A stretch of DNA of 64,000 nucleotides, from assembly GCA_017408985.1 (NCBI GenBank), contig JAFQTO010000038.1, positions 1-64,000 on the forward strand, read 5' to 3'. Numbering within the stretch: the stretch's first letter is position 1; each line of letters opens with the position of its first letter. The position numbers and the translations under genes are program-made. This document shows positions 56,351 through 61,575 of this stretch, in pieces. Under the pieces are notes generated by a model that searched no databases, was not told the origin of the DNA, and saw nothing but the letters and a program-made list of their open reading frames with translations. The stretch comes from Clostridia bacterium. Lineage in GTDB: Bacteria; Bacillota; Clostridia; Oscillospirales; Butyricicoccaceae.

Positions 56351-57166
56351 ATGGACAACTACGGCAAAAAAGATAATTATAATAAAGATCACAAGCCGTT
56401 CAGGGGCAAGAGATTTGACAAGGATGCCCGTGACGACAGCGAATGTACGGTAGAGGGCAAAAATGCCGTTTATGAGGCTGTCAAGAGCGGCCGCGAGATA
56501 GACAAGATACTGTTTGCCGCAGGCTCAATTGCCACGGTAGGCAACATCATCGCTCTTGCACGCAAGAACGGCATCCTCACCCAGGAGACCGACAAACGCA
56601 AGCTGGACAAGCTGAGCACCACCGGCTCACATCAGGGCATTATTGCTCTGTGCGCCGCTGTGCCCTACAGAACGGTTGACGATATGCTGAGCAAGGCCGC
56701 GGAGATGGGCGCCGCTCCCCTCATCGTGGTATGCGACGGTATTACCGACACACACAATCTGGGCGCTATCATCCGCTCCGCAGAGGTTTCGGGCGCACAC
56801 GGCGTTATCATCCCCCGCAAGCGCAGTGCCGGACTCAACTCCTCCTGCGCCAAGGCTGCGGCAGGCGCTTTGGAGCATCTTCCCGTTGCCAAGCTCAGCA
56901 GTACCCTTGCCGCAGTTGAGGAGCTGCACCAAAAGGGGCTCAAGGTGTACGCCGCCGATATGAACGGCGACAGTATGTACGATGCCGACCTGACGGAAGC
57001 CTGCGCCATAGTCATAGGTTCCGAGGGTGACGGCGTGTCGTATCAGGTCAAAAACACCTGCGACGGGGTCATATCCATTCCACAGACGGGCATTATCCCC
57101 TCGCTCAACGCATCCAACGCAGCCGCCGTGCTGCTCTATGAAGCATACAGACAAAGGAGAGGCTGA
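56351..57166 (+). CDS. rlmB: TrmH/SpoU-family 23S rRNA 2'-O-methyltransferase (RlmB-like)
   Basis: The 271-residue protein has an unstructured Lys/Asp-rich N terminus (about 1-30), a substrate-binding domain beginning VEGKNAVYEAVKSGREI, then the SPOUT knot with GITDTHNLGAIIRSAE, VIIPRKRSA, IVIGSEGDG and IPQTGIIPSLNASNAAAVLL. These are the three SpoU motifs. It should methylate a 23S rRNA guanosine 2'-OH with SAM. The next gene starts 5 bp later. Confidence 0.92.
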   Translation: MDNYGKKDNYNKDHKPFRGKRFDKDARDDSECTVEGKNAVYEAVKSGREIDKILFAAGSIATVGNIIALARKNGILTQETDKRKLDKLSTTGSHQGIIALCAAVPYRTVDDMLSKAAEMGAAPLIVVCDGITDTHNLGAIIRSAEVSGAHGVIIPRKRSAGLNSSCAKAAAGALEHLPVAKLSSTLAAVEELHQKGLKVYAADMNGDSMYDADLTEACAIVIGSEGDGVSYQVKNTCDGVISIPQTGIIPSLNASNAAAVLLYEAYRQRRG

Positions 57167-57171
57167 AACAT

Positions 57172-59403
57172 ATGTCAGACAGCCGCTATGAGCTCGAAGA
57201 TATAATTGCCGAAATCAAGGCTCAAACCGCCAAAGAAGCAGAGTGCAAGGACAACTCCGAAGATAAAAAGGCGCTCACTCCCGATGTCGGGAGTGCCTCA
57301 GACGTGCAAAATGATACGTCTGCGTCCAAAGCCGAGGATATCCCCGTGCCCGAAACGGTGGATGCCTCTGCTCCCGAAACGGAGGATGAAGCCGTCGTCT
57401 GTGCCGGTGACGTATCCGCTCCCGAAACGGAAGAAGAATCCGCGCCTTATGAGGAAATCGGCGCAGGGCAAAGCGGGATATTCAAAAAGGAGCTTGACGA
57501 GCTTTTTGATGGAGACCCTCCCAAAAAAGCAAAAAAATCCAAAAAAGTAAAAAATCTCAAGTCCGAGCCAAAAAAATCGGATAAAAAATATAAAAAGCCC
57601 AAAAAGGACAATCCCGCCAAAAAGGTCAAAGCCACCAAAAAGAGCAAAAAGTCCGGCGCTGCCGAAAGAGCCGCCACAAATGATCCGGACGACGAGCTGA
57701 CGGGATATCTGACCGACGAGGATTCCGAGCGCAGTCTGCCTTATGATTTTGTCAACCGTACCTATCAGGATACCGAAGAGGCGCTGAACGGGATATCCGC
57801 AAGGCTCCCCTCTATGGGCATCCGCCTGCTCCTTCTTTTCCCCGTATGGCTCATATCCCTTTATATGACCCTGGCTTTTCCCCTTCGGCTGCCTATGCCA
57901 TTCGGTTTTTCTTATTTCAGCACGCCGTTTTTGTATCTGCTGCTGTTTTTCGTCCTTGAGGTCGCCGCCGTTATTCTTGCAAGCGACGTGACCGTCTCGG
58001 GACTTGCGCGGCTTATCAAGGGCAAGCCGACTCTTGACACTCTGGTGCTGTTTGCCTCTCTGTCGTCCATGGCCTATATAATCACGGTCATTCTTTTCCC
58101 AAAATGGGGCGGCTGGCTGCCCTATACCTCTGCCACGGTGGGACTGTGCTTCTTCTCTCTGGCATCCAAGCGCCGCAGGTTCGTATCACTCAAGCGAACC
58201 TACAAGATACTGCGCTCGGATACCTCTCCCACTGCGCTCAAGGCACAGGGGACACGCCGTTACAAGACCGCGTATATGACCTATAAGAGCGTGTTTCCCG
58301 AAATGTCCGACATTTCCTGCCCCGATGCCACAGAGCGGTTTTCTATGTACTATTCGCCCCTTGCAATACTCATCTCCATAGCCCTTGCCACGGCGGCAAG
58401 CTTCGGCAGGCAGAATCCCACCTCGTTTACCTGGTGTCTGTCGGCTCTGTCGGTAATGACCGTTTCCCCCGCTCTGCTCATATCCTCGGCACTGCCCAAC
58501 AGCGTTATCGGCAAAAAGCTGTTTGCCTCGGGCAGCACATTTATAAACGGCAAAGCTGCTCAGGATATATCACGCTGCCGCAGTGCGATAGTGACCGACA
58601 ACGAGGTATTCCCCGCAGGAAGCATCGCCATAACAAGTCTCAAGATAGGCGACGGTTTTGAGCTTGACGAGGTGTACTCGGTTGCCGCCTCGGCACTGGA
58701 AGTCATCGGCGGAGGTCTGTACTATATCTTTGATGAATCGGCACGTCAGCTCTACGGACAGAGATACGACGTGGACGAGATAAGATTCTTTGAGACGGGC
58801 GGTATGTCCGCAAAGGTCGGCGGTGACTACGTGCTTATCGGTACTGCGTCGTTTTTGATGCGGATGGGTGTGGATATACTTCACGGAGTAAAGCTGCAGA
58901 ACTGTCTGTACGTCTCCATCAACTCGCGGTTTGCCGGCGTGTTCTCCCTCAAGTACATCGCCCAGCCTCAGGTATACAGCTCCTTCCGTATTCTGCGGCG
59001 TGCCAAAACTACCCCCATACTCGCCCTGCGCGACTTTTTGACCACGGAGGCGTTTATCGAGGACAAGTTCAAGCTCCACGCCGAAAGCTGCGACTATCCC
59101 GACACTCAGGCGCGGGTGGACTACTCCTCCGACAATTTTGAGGAGAGCGAGCCTCTTGCCGTAATGTCCCACAGCAATATGTACGCCTATTCGGAGCTTA
59201 TCCTCTCCTCCAGAAAGCTTATGAGGAGCATGACCTTCAATATCATCTGCTCGGTTCTGGGATGTATAGTCGGCGTGCTTATTATGTACTTTTTGGTGTC
59301 GAATATGGAAGCTTCATCCGCTTCTCCCCTGAATATTCTGGTGTATATGGGGTGCTGGGCGGTGCCTGTTTGGTTATCTTCACTTATTTTTACGATAGTT
59401 TAG
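57172..59403 (+). CDS. Large membrane protein resembling a P1B-type ATPase without catalytic motifs
   Basis: The 743-residue protein has an N-terminal disordered part: an acidic stretch to about 115 and a Lys-rich stretch 117-165. After that the order of P1B (heavy-metal) ATPases can be followed. KPTLDTLVLFASLSSMAYI (285-303) matches the xMDTLVAL helix, and FSMYYSPLAILISIA (390-404) the DRxxxYFxPxV helix. VMTVSPALLISSA (428-440) stands where CPC should be, and SAIVTDNEVF (471-480) where the DKTGT phosphorylation site should be. GGDYVLIGTASFLMRMGV (550-567) matches the N-domain VLVGN motif. ILALRDFL (616-623) replaces TGDN, and the GDGxND loop is absent. It cannot form the phospho-aspartate by the known mechanism. 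The frame is intact and long, so it is a retained protein. It follows rlmB by 5 bp; AGGAGAGG precedes ATG. The role may be binding or regulation. Confidence 0.72.
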   Translation: MSDSRYELEDIIAEIKAQTAKEAECKDNSEDKKALTPDVGSASDVQNDTSASKAEDIPVPETVDASAPETEDEAVVCAGDVSAPETEEESAPYEEIGAGQSGIFKKELDELFDGDPPKKAKKSKKVKNLKSEPKKSDKKYKKPKKDNPAKKVKATKKSKKSGAAERAATNDPDDELTGYLTDEDSERSLPYDFVNRTYQDTEEALNGISARLPSMGIRLLLLFPVWLISLYMTLAFPLRLPMPFGFSYFSTPFLYLLLFFVLEVAAVILASDVTVSGLARLIKGKPTLDTLVLFASLSSMAYIITVILFPKWGGWLPYTSATVGLCFFSLASKRRRFVSLKRTYKILRSDTSPTALKAQGTRRYKTAYMTYKSVFPEMSDISCPDATERFSMYYSPLAILISIALATAASFGRQNPTSFTWCLSALSVMTVSPALLISSALPNSVIGKKLFASGSTFINGKAAQDISRCRSAIVTDNEVFPAGSIAITSLKIGDGFELDEVYSVAASALEVIGGGLYYIFDESARQLYGQRYDVDEIRFFETGGMSAKVGGDYVLIGTASFLMRMGVDILHGVKLQNCLYVSINSRFAGVFSLKYIAQPQVYSSFRILRRAKTTPILALRDFLTTEAFIEDKFKLHAESCDYPDTQARVDYSSDNFEESEPLAVMSHSNMYAYSELILSSRKLMRSMTFNIICSVLGCIVGVLIMYFLVSNMEASSASPLNILVYMGCWAVPVWLSSLIFTIV

Positions 59404-59443: not shown

Positions 59444-59496
59444 GTACTTTAAGGCGATTATTATATTTGAAATAAACCATCCAAAGGAGTGACACT

Positions 59497-61575
59497 ATGC
59501 CCTATCCCATTAACAAGATCAGAAACATCTGCCTTCTCGGTCACGGAGGTGACGGAAAGACTTCTCTTGCCGAAATGATGCTTTACCGTACAGGCGGCAC
59601 CGACCGTCTCGGAAAGATCTCCGAAGGCAATACTACCAGCGACTGGGATGCTGAAGAAATCAAGCGCCAGTTCTCCACTCAGCTCTCCAATATTCCCGTT
59701 GAGTTCGAAGGCAATATTATCAACCTTCTGGACACTCCCGGCTACTTTGACTTTGAGGGTGAAGTCGCACAGGCTATGCGTGTTGCAGACTGCGGCCTTA
59801 TCGTTTGCTCTGCAAAGAACGGCTGCGCTGTCGGTACGGAAAAGGCATGGAAGGCTGTCAACAAGACCAAGCTGCCCCGTATCTTCTGTATCAACAAGAT
59901 CGATGAAGAGAATGCAAACTATGAGGATGCATACAACTCCCTCAGAGACGCATTCGGCGCATCTGTTACTCCCTTTATCATCCCCCTGCTGGACGGCAGC
60001 AACCCCATCGGCGTTATCAACCTGGTAACCAAGAAGGCTTACAAGACCGAGGGCACCAGCAAGGTCACCGAGGTCGAGATCCCCGCTGAGTCTGCTGACA
60101 AGGTCGAGAGACTGCGTGCCGCTCTTATCGACGGCGTTGCAGAGTCCAGCGAAGAGCTTCTGGAAAAATACTTCAGCGGCGAAGAGTTCACCCAGGAAGA
60201 GATCCTCACAGGTCTGCGTACCGGTGTTCTCAGCGGTTCCATCGCTCCCGTCGTCTGCGTATCCTCCATCAGCGGCGTAGGTATCATGCAGCTGCTCAGC
60301 ACCATCGTTGACTATGCTCCCGCTCCCAACGAAGTCCGTGTTGAGAAGGCTATCGCTTCCCGCGGCGCTGACGTTCTGGACGTTGCATACGATCCCGACG
60401 GCAAGACCATCATCTTCGTATTCAAGACCATCGCCGACCAGTACGGACGTTTCTCCTTCTTCAAGGTCATCTCCGGTAAGGTCACCGCTGATATGCAGCT
60501 TATCAACGCACGTACCGGCTCCAGCGAAAAGATGGGTCACATCTACATCGTCAAGGGCAGAAAGAACAAGGAAGTTACCGAGGTCTCCTGCGGTGACATC
60601 GGCGCAGTTTCCAAGCTTGGCGACACCATGACCGGTGACACCCTCTGCGCACCCGGCATCGATCTGGCTCTGACCGGCATCGAGTTCAACGAGCCCTGCT
60701 ACAGCCGTGCTATCTCCTCCAAGGTCAAGGGCGGCGAAGAAAAGATCGCAGCCGGCCTCAGCCGTCTCCGTGACGAAGACCCCGCATTTACCGTTGTCAA
60801 CAACGCTGAGACCAAGCAGATGGTCATCTCCGGCGCAGGCGACATCCACATCGATCTGCTCTGCTCCAAGCTGAAGAACAAGTTCGGCGTTGAGGTCGAG
60901 CTCAGCGAGCCCAAGGTCGCATACCGCGAGAAGATCCGCAAAAAAGTCGAAATGGTCGAAGGCAACCACAAGAAGCAGTCGGGCGGCCACGGTCAGTACG
61001 GTAACGTCAAGATGAACTTCGAGCCTATCGAGGGCGAGGATTTCATATTCGAGGAGCAGATCTTCGGCGGCAGCGTTCCCAAGAACTTCCATCCCGCTGT
61101 TGAAAAGGGTATCCGTGAGGCTATGGAGCACGGCGTTCTGGCAGGCTTCCCCATGGTCGGCCTCAAGGCTACACTTATGGACGGTAAGTATCACGACGTT
61201 GACTCCAACGAACTGTCCTTTAAGATGGCTGCACGTCTGGCATTCAAGGCCGGTATCCCCAAGGCTAACCCCGTCGTTCTGGAGCCCGTTGGCAGCCTGA
61301 AGGTTTATGTACCCGACAGCTACATGGGCGACATTATCGGCGATCTGAACAAGCGTCGCGGCCGTGTTATGGGTATGACCCCTCAGGGCGACGGCATCCA
61401 GATGATCGAGGCTGAGATCCCCATGAGCGAGACCAGCGACTACGCTATCACTCTCCGCTCCATGACTCAGGGCAGAGGCTCCTTCTCCGTCAAGTTCGAG
61501 CGCTACGAGGAAGTTCCTCCCGTAGAGCAGGAGAAGATCATTGCCGAGCACGCAAACTTCGAGGACGAAGATTAA
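59497..61575 (+). CDS. Elongation-factor-G-like GTPase (EF-G type II-like)
   Basis: The 692-residue protein follows the full EF-G order, with G domain, domain II, and domains III-V to the end. The G domain deviates: G1 is GHGGDGKT (residues 15-22) instead of GHIDAGKT. The switch I RGITI is replaced by KRQFST. G3 is DTPGY (79-83), so the catalytic histidine of DTPGH is tyrosine. G4 NKID is kept. Such forms occur in EF-G-2-like subfamilies whose role in translation is uncertain. Codons are strongly biased towards C-ending and AAG forms, which suggests high expression. A canonical fusA should exist elsewhere. Confidence 0.85.
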   Translation: MPYPINKIRNICLLGHGGDGKTSLAEMMLYRTGGTDRLGKISEGNTTSDWDAEEIKRQFSTQLSNIPVEFEGNIINLLDTPGYFDFEGEVAQAMRVADCGLIVCSAKNGCAVGTEKAWKAVNKTKLPRIFCINKIDEENANYEDAYNSLRDAFGASVTPFIIPLLDGSNPIGVINLVTKKAYKTEGTSKVTEVEIPAESADKVERLRAALIDGVAESSEELLEKYFSGEEFTQEEILTGLRTGVLSGSIAPVVCVSSISGVGIMQLLSTIVDYAPAPNEVRVEKAIASRGADVLDVAYDPDGKTIIFVFKTIADQYGRFSFFKVISGKVTADMQLINARTGSSEKMGHIYIVKGRKNKEVTEVSCGDIGAVSKLGDTMTGDTLCAPGIDLALTGIEFNEPCYSRAISSKVKGGEEKIAAGLSRLRDEDPAFTVVNNAETKQMVISGAGDIHIDLLCSKLKNKFGVEVELSEPKVAYREKIRKKVEMVEGNHKKQSGGHGQYGNVKMNFEPIEGEDFIFEEQIFGGSVPKNFHPAVEKGIREAMEHGVLAGFPMVGLKATLMDGKYHDVDSNELSFKMAARLAFKAGIPKANPVVLEPVGSLKVYVPDSYMGDIIGDLNKRRGRVMGMTPQGDGIQMIEAEIPMSETSDYAITLRSMTQGRGSFSVKFERYEEVPPVEQEKIIAEHANFEDED

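Follow-up and report, generated by a model that had tools for sequence, protein, structure and literature searches.

A P1B-type ATPase homologue without the motifs of the pump, retained beside rlmB in an order of Clostridia

Pseudoenzymes are well known among kinases. For P-type ATPases described as pseudo, inactive or degenerate, a search of the literature and family libraries yielded no stand-alone bacterial family, which is weak evidence, as it comes from the open-access literature. The closest precedent is the degenerate P4-ATPase domain of the Plasmodium guanylate cyclase beta (PMC6592433). That domain, however, is eukaryotic, of the P4 type and fused to a cyclase, whereas the protein described here is bacterial, derived from the P1B type, stand-alone and order-wide.

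With the P1B ATPases themselves (CopA, HMA4, ZntA) this protein shares the order of elements, the membrane segments, an MDxLV-like element, the proline of the CPC helix, the GGxSA/VLxG segment of the N domain and the Asp of TGDN, and its profile matches the structures 8q75, 3rfu and 4umv. Unlike them, it is devoid of TGE, CPC, DKTGT, HP, P-x-x-K and GDGxND, its A domain is almost deleted, and it carries a charged tail rather than an HMA domain.

The locus and its relation to P1B-type ATPases

The gene lies in a 64,000-nucleotide stretch of clostridial DNA, the whole of which we call the window. A first-pass annotation had described it as an intact frame of 743 codons on the scaffold of a heavy-metal P-type ATPase, and both statements were borne out. 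Its immediate surroundings are as follows; 5 nt separate the stop codon of rlmB from its ATG.

56351..57166, + strand: rlmB, 23S rRNA 2'-O-methyltransferase, SpoU family (Pfam SpoU_methylase, 8e-40)
57172..59403, + strand: pseudo-P1B-ATPase gene, ATG start, 743 codons, frame without internal stop
59497..61575, + strand: EF-G-like GTPase gene, 3' of the pseudo-P1B-ATPase gene (Pfam EFG domains)

The EF-G-like gene is kept as a neighbour in the window's family and in a few others. Its product has an unusual P-loop (GHGGDGKTS), the canonical EF-G P-loop being GHIDAGKTT. This sequence, together with the conserved position beside the pseudo-ATPase, suggests that the protein is probably an EF-G paralogue. 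A 696-aa open frame antisense to the gene (59461-61551, minus strand) is most likely a codon-bias shadow of it.

Searched alone, the window protein gave E values of 1.1 with Pfam E1-E2_ATPase and 0.13 with NCBIfam ATPase-IB_hvy, and no family in Pfam or NCBIfam reached its curated cut-off. Of 60 relatives, 57 yielded homologues in a six-frame protein search, the weakest matches being the canonical pumps of those genomes, and L003 (45% identical), missed by blastp, was added by hand. A scan of genome contigs returned one near relative only, and viral contigs, for which A1 (below) was too little conserved to serve as a query, yielded no relatives with A4. Across A1, a 30-member core alignment of the family, the best library scores were 1.4e-12 (PRK11033) and 2.9e-11 (ATPase-IB_hvy). 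Against a set of 23 canonical P1B pumps drawn from this group of genomes, the family profile scored 99.2% probability and E 3.3e-19 (hhalign), and it also matched P1B-like proteins in other orders. Every PDB match at E<=0.01 was a P1B ATPase, and the best were all copper or zinc ATPases: rice HMA4 (8e-14), the copper efflux ATPase 3rfu (7e-10) and the zinc ATPase 4umv (1.6e-7). AlphaFold2, run with a two-sequence input only (window protein and L031), gave a pLDDT of 32. Since the case is made by the hhalign and PDB profile matches, homology to P1B pumps is established at the level of sequence without a 3-D model, and it extends across the TM region and the P and N domains. There is good support for the identity of the protein and for its having lost the chemistry of a pump; its role we infer.

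Loss of the catalytic motifs

The features of the pump that can still be followed, or whose place can be located, are listed in order.

57814..58176, + strand: first four membrane segments, equivalents of P1B MA, MB, M1 and M2 (hydropathy; profile positions 5-120 match canonical P1B)
58177..58350, + strand: remnant of the A (actuator) domain, about 58 residues, without TGE (alignment, 69 of 69 without TGE)
58351..58506, + strand: equivalents of TM5 and TM6, with V-S-P at the CPC position inside (alignments, hydropathy)
58594..58608, + strand: DKTGT position, now T-D-N-E-V (T475-D476-N477-E478-V479; three agreeing alignments)
59026..59037, + strand: TGDN position, now L-R-D-F (L619-R620-D621-F622), Asp kept (alignments)
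59167..59178, + strand: GDGxND region, now S-H-S-N, canonical loop deleted (alignments)
59242..59391, + strand: final two transmembrane helices, residues 691-740 (hydropathy)

Within the first membrane block, KPTLDTLV corresponds to the MDxLV element of CopA, and the stretch before the last TM pair aligns with its P1B counterpart (hhalign). Hydropathy identified seven membrane regions in the P1B order; an eighth, the fourth in order (about residues 316-334), fell under the threshold and was taken from the alignment. The predicted topology therefore comprises about eight membrane segments.

We surveyed the motifs in an alignment of 69 members, which represent more than 20 families of a single order (it may be Oscillospirales). 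In this alignment none has an intact TGE, CPC, DKTGT, HP, P-x-x-K or GDGxND, while canonical P1B pumps in the same genomes retain them; close and distant homologues are alike in having neither DKTGT nor GDGxND. The register in the window was taken from three alignments (hhalign, MAFFT merge and HMMER to PDB 8q75), which confirmed exactly the first-pass assignments of TDNEV to DKTGT and LRDF to TGDN. The reported change of CPC to SPA was correct as to the loss of CPC, but not as to position: ungapped alignment places V-S-P there, with both Cys gone and one Pro remaining, and SPA lies one residue further on. GDGxND has gone, as had been claimed, its loop being deleted in 69 of 69 members; the region reads S-R-D-x in most of the window's family. 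The HP of the N domain is not conserved in the family, and the window has G-G-G-L. The broader claim that every catalytic motif is lost thus stands for the motifs but not for every residue in them, since the Asp of TGDN persists in 64/69, the Pro of CPC in 56/69 and the second Gly of the N-domain GxG in 68/69. The persistence of these three residues suggests that the fold is probably kept.

With the phosphorylation site, TGE, HP, Lys and GDGxND all lost, this protein is incompatible with the established catalytic cycle of P-type ATPases, and without CPC the metal site is gone. As judged from its sequence, the pseudo-P1B-ATPase would have no ATPase activity.

What replaces DKTGT follows a pattern of its own (family consensus x-D-x-[DE]-[LIV]-F-P-x-G), with Asp at the position of the Lys in 55 of the 69 members and D/E two residues further in 66. 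D-x-D is the general motif I of HAD proteins, and the D-x-[DE] seen here could be the catalytic pair of a re-evolved HAD-like phosphatase or phosphotransferase. HAD catalysis requires Asp at both positions, however, and the first is A, S or E in several families (f23 and f25 among them), while the second is E in 14/69. In addition, the Lys of motif III varies and the motif IV loop is missing throughout, so that the family does not display the strict DxD, the Lys of motif III or the acidic residues of motif IV that mark an HAD phosphatase. We consider such an enzyme very unlikely. Little better can be said of a passive permease or channel that uses the transmembrane path as an ATP-independent conduit. 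The P1B-like membrane segments and the CPC-helix Pro would serve it, but the transmembrane metal ligands are gone and the cytosolic P and N remnants are under a constraint that a simple channel would not need, which makes this reading improbable.

Retention and origin beside rlmB

A clear copy of the gene (E<=1e-23) was found in 125 of the 146 good genomes of the order, most of which are incomplete assemblies in many contigs. Thirteen of the remaining genomes were checked, 11 of which had a locatable rlmB. The ORF after rlmB is, in 10 of the 11, a diverged family member (family HMM, E 4e-5 or better); in the eleventh the gene is cut by a contig end and its N-terminus carries the family motif MEFSVEDILAEFK. 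The 125 genomes and the diverged copies after rlmB together exclude local decay. Furthermore, dN/dS (Nei-Gojobori, against the same-genus L002) was 0.11 for the core and 0.27 for residues 1-194, and the gene is therefore under purifying selection. A decaying pseudogene that happens still to be open would account for the loss of all motifs and for the fast divergence, but it is refuted by frames intact almost everywhere, by the low core dN/dS and by near-universal presence, and we give it practically no credence. The same observations support the earlier notion of a retained non-enzymatic protein, and at the level of sequence neither outcome named as refuting it was seen: the match is to P-type ATPases, and no close homologue has DKTGT or GDGxND.

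Linkage to rlmB, which the first-pass annotation had singled out for checking, is conserved across the order: rlmB lies directly upstream on the same strand at 64 of 69 loci, and the five exceptions include three contig edges and one broken ORF. Downstream genes vary by family (SpoIID/LytB-like, LCP-like, EF-G-like and others), rlmB alone being constant. By eye, the gene 3' of the pseudo-ATPase resembles SpoIID/LytB at L073, L091 and L103, and an LCP-type protein at L080. Since rlmB is a housekeeping gene, the linkage may reflect inheritance rather than function.

A possible source of this arrangement exists in f39, a family of another order of the class, where five genomes from five genera have lysC-rlmB-copA. 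The rlmB-linked CopA proteins (L178-L182, L191-L193) have an intact HMA MxCxxC, TGES, CPC, DKTGT, HP and GDGxND. Both the f39 CopA and the pseudo-gene are thus P1B-type and directly follow rlmB, and orthology is neither rejected nor proven. Among 30 outgroup genomes of the class, a P1B-like gene follows rlmB only in the f39 one, and it is canonical. In the rlmB tree the deep branches were unresolved and f39 did not fall beside the order. In the P1B tree the pseudo clade forms one group (100% support) on a stem of >4 changes per site, a branch too long for the tree to find the parental pump. Constraining the pseudo clade to group with f39 CopA slightly improved the log-likelihood (+4.6; AU p 0.6), and ZntA-like pumps as an alternative parent were likewise not rejected (AU p 0.35). 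The f39 arrangement is suggestive of an ancestral lysC-rlmB-copA whose pump gene turned into the pseudo-gene without leaving its position. The best explanation of the distribution is that the pseudo-gene is older than the radiation of the order and has been inherited vertically beside rlmB.

The genome to which the window belongs (G000) also has a canonical CopA (L105/L112, G000:C40:17372-19162), with one in-frame TAG past the TGDN region. This CopA may be truncated, or the TAG may be an assembly error.

The N-terminal tail and a possible role

Ahead of the membrane body are two further features.

57187..57219, + strand: short conserved motif YELEDIIAEIK (pattern [YF]-x-[LIV]-[DE]-[DE]-I-[IL]-x-E-[FVIY])
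57220..57753, + strand: low-complexity tail, acidic then Lys-rich, residues 17-194 (sequence)

An acidic and Lys-rich N terminus of about 190 residues had been proposed, and in the window this is accurate (31 K and 45 D+E in the first 190 residues); no HMA metal-binding domain was seen in the window protein. The charged tail is probably disordered. As a description of the family the claim needs qualifying, because tail length is highly variable: most members have a long charged tail, but in family f10 it is nearly absent and the motif is missing, so that the function must involve more than the tail. Within the window's family almost every full-length member has the motif, and many members elsewhere have it in a strict or a relaxed version. 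We rejected the idea that it is a general sorting tag, as a search of the G000 genome with the strict motif as a DNA pattern gave a single match, the pseudo-ATPase gene itself. Some lineages (L021, L024, L027, L023 and L026) have a second conserved stretch, MDTQEL-x-[ED]-IR-x-[LM]-[IL]-G-[ED], ahead of the main one.

Because the motifs of the pump are lost while nearly every member of the order keeps the gene intact beside rlmB, the pseudo-ATPase probably now performs a task other than pumping. The combination of a constrained membrane body with a flexible tail and a conserved short motif leads us to propose, with evenly divided confidence, a P1B pseudoenzyme that serves as a membrane-anchored scaffold or adaptor. 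Its eight-TM body, in which the phosphorylation and nucleotide domains survive as remnants, would be neither phosphorylated nor able to bind metal canonically, given that it has lost the phosphorylation site, the dephosphorylation loop with TGE, the HP for the adenine of ATP, the Lys of the P domain, the hinge motif GDGxND and the metal ligands of CPC. The N-terminal motif, carried on the long charged flexible tail, would capture a partner in the cytosol, while the body of the pseudo-pump, with its conserved DxDLFPxG and GGxSA cytosolic loops, would anchor the adaptor or relay a conformational signal. The protein may be a binding or regulatory derivative, as the first-pass annotation suggested.

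Regulation could also be directed at the true P1B pumps, the protein binding CopA or ZntA in the membrane and modulating copper or zinc export, much as pseudokinases do with kinases. Common ancestry would favour this, as would the presence of a canonical P1B pump in 145 of 147 genomes of the order. However, P1B pumps are near universal (14/14 control genomes), so their co-occurrence is uninformative, and no constant metal-gene neighbour was seen among the loci. Moreover, the pseudo-gene occurs in G430 (97% complete) and in G397 (94%), neither of which has a P1B match at E<=1e-60; G430 in particular speaks for a role that does not depend on metal pumps. We therefore regard a regulator of pumps as unlikely.

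Returning to the membrane adaptor, its fullest form would be a core, possibly essential gene throughout the order: a copper pump of an rlmB operon, converted in place to a non-transporting adaptor, with an intact pump still occupying the corresponding position in another order of the class. We advance this fuller account tentatively, with somewhat less than even confidence. Automatic annotation is unlikely to recognise the gene, as with ATPase models a single sequence scores only about E 0.1-1. That almost the whole of an order of gut Clostridia retains it suggests an important function, and the pseudo-ATPase offers a natural test of what the body of a P-type ATPase can do without its chemistry.
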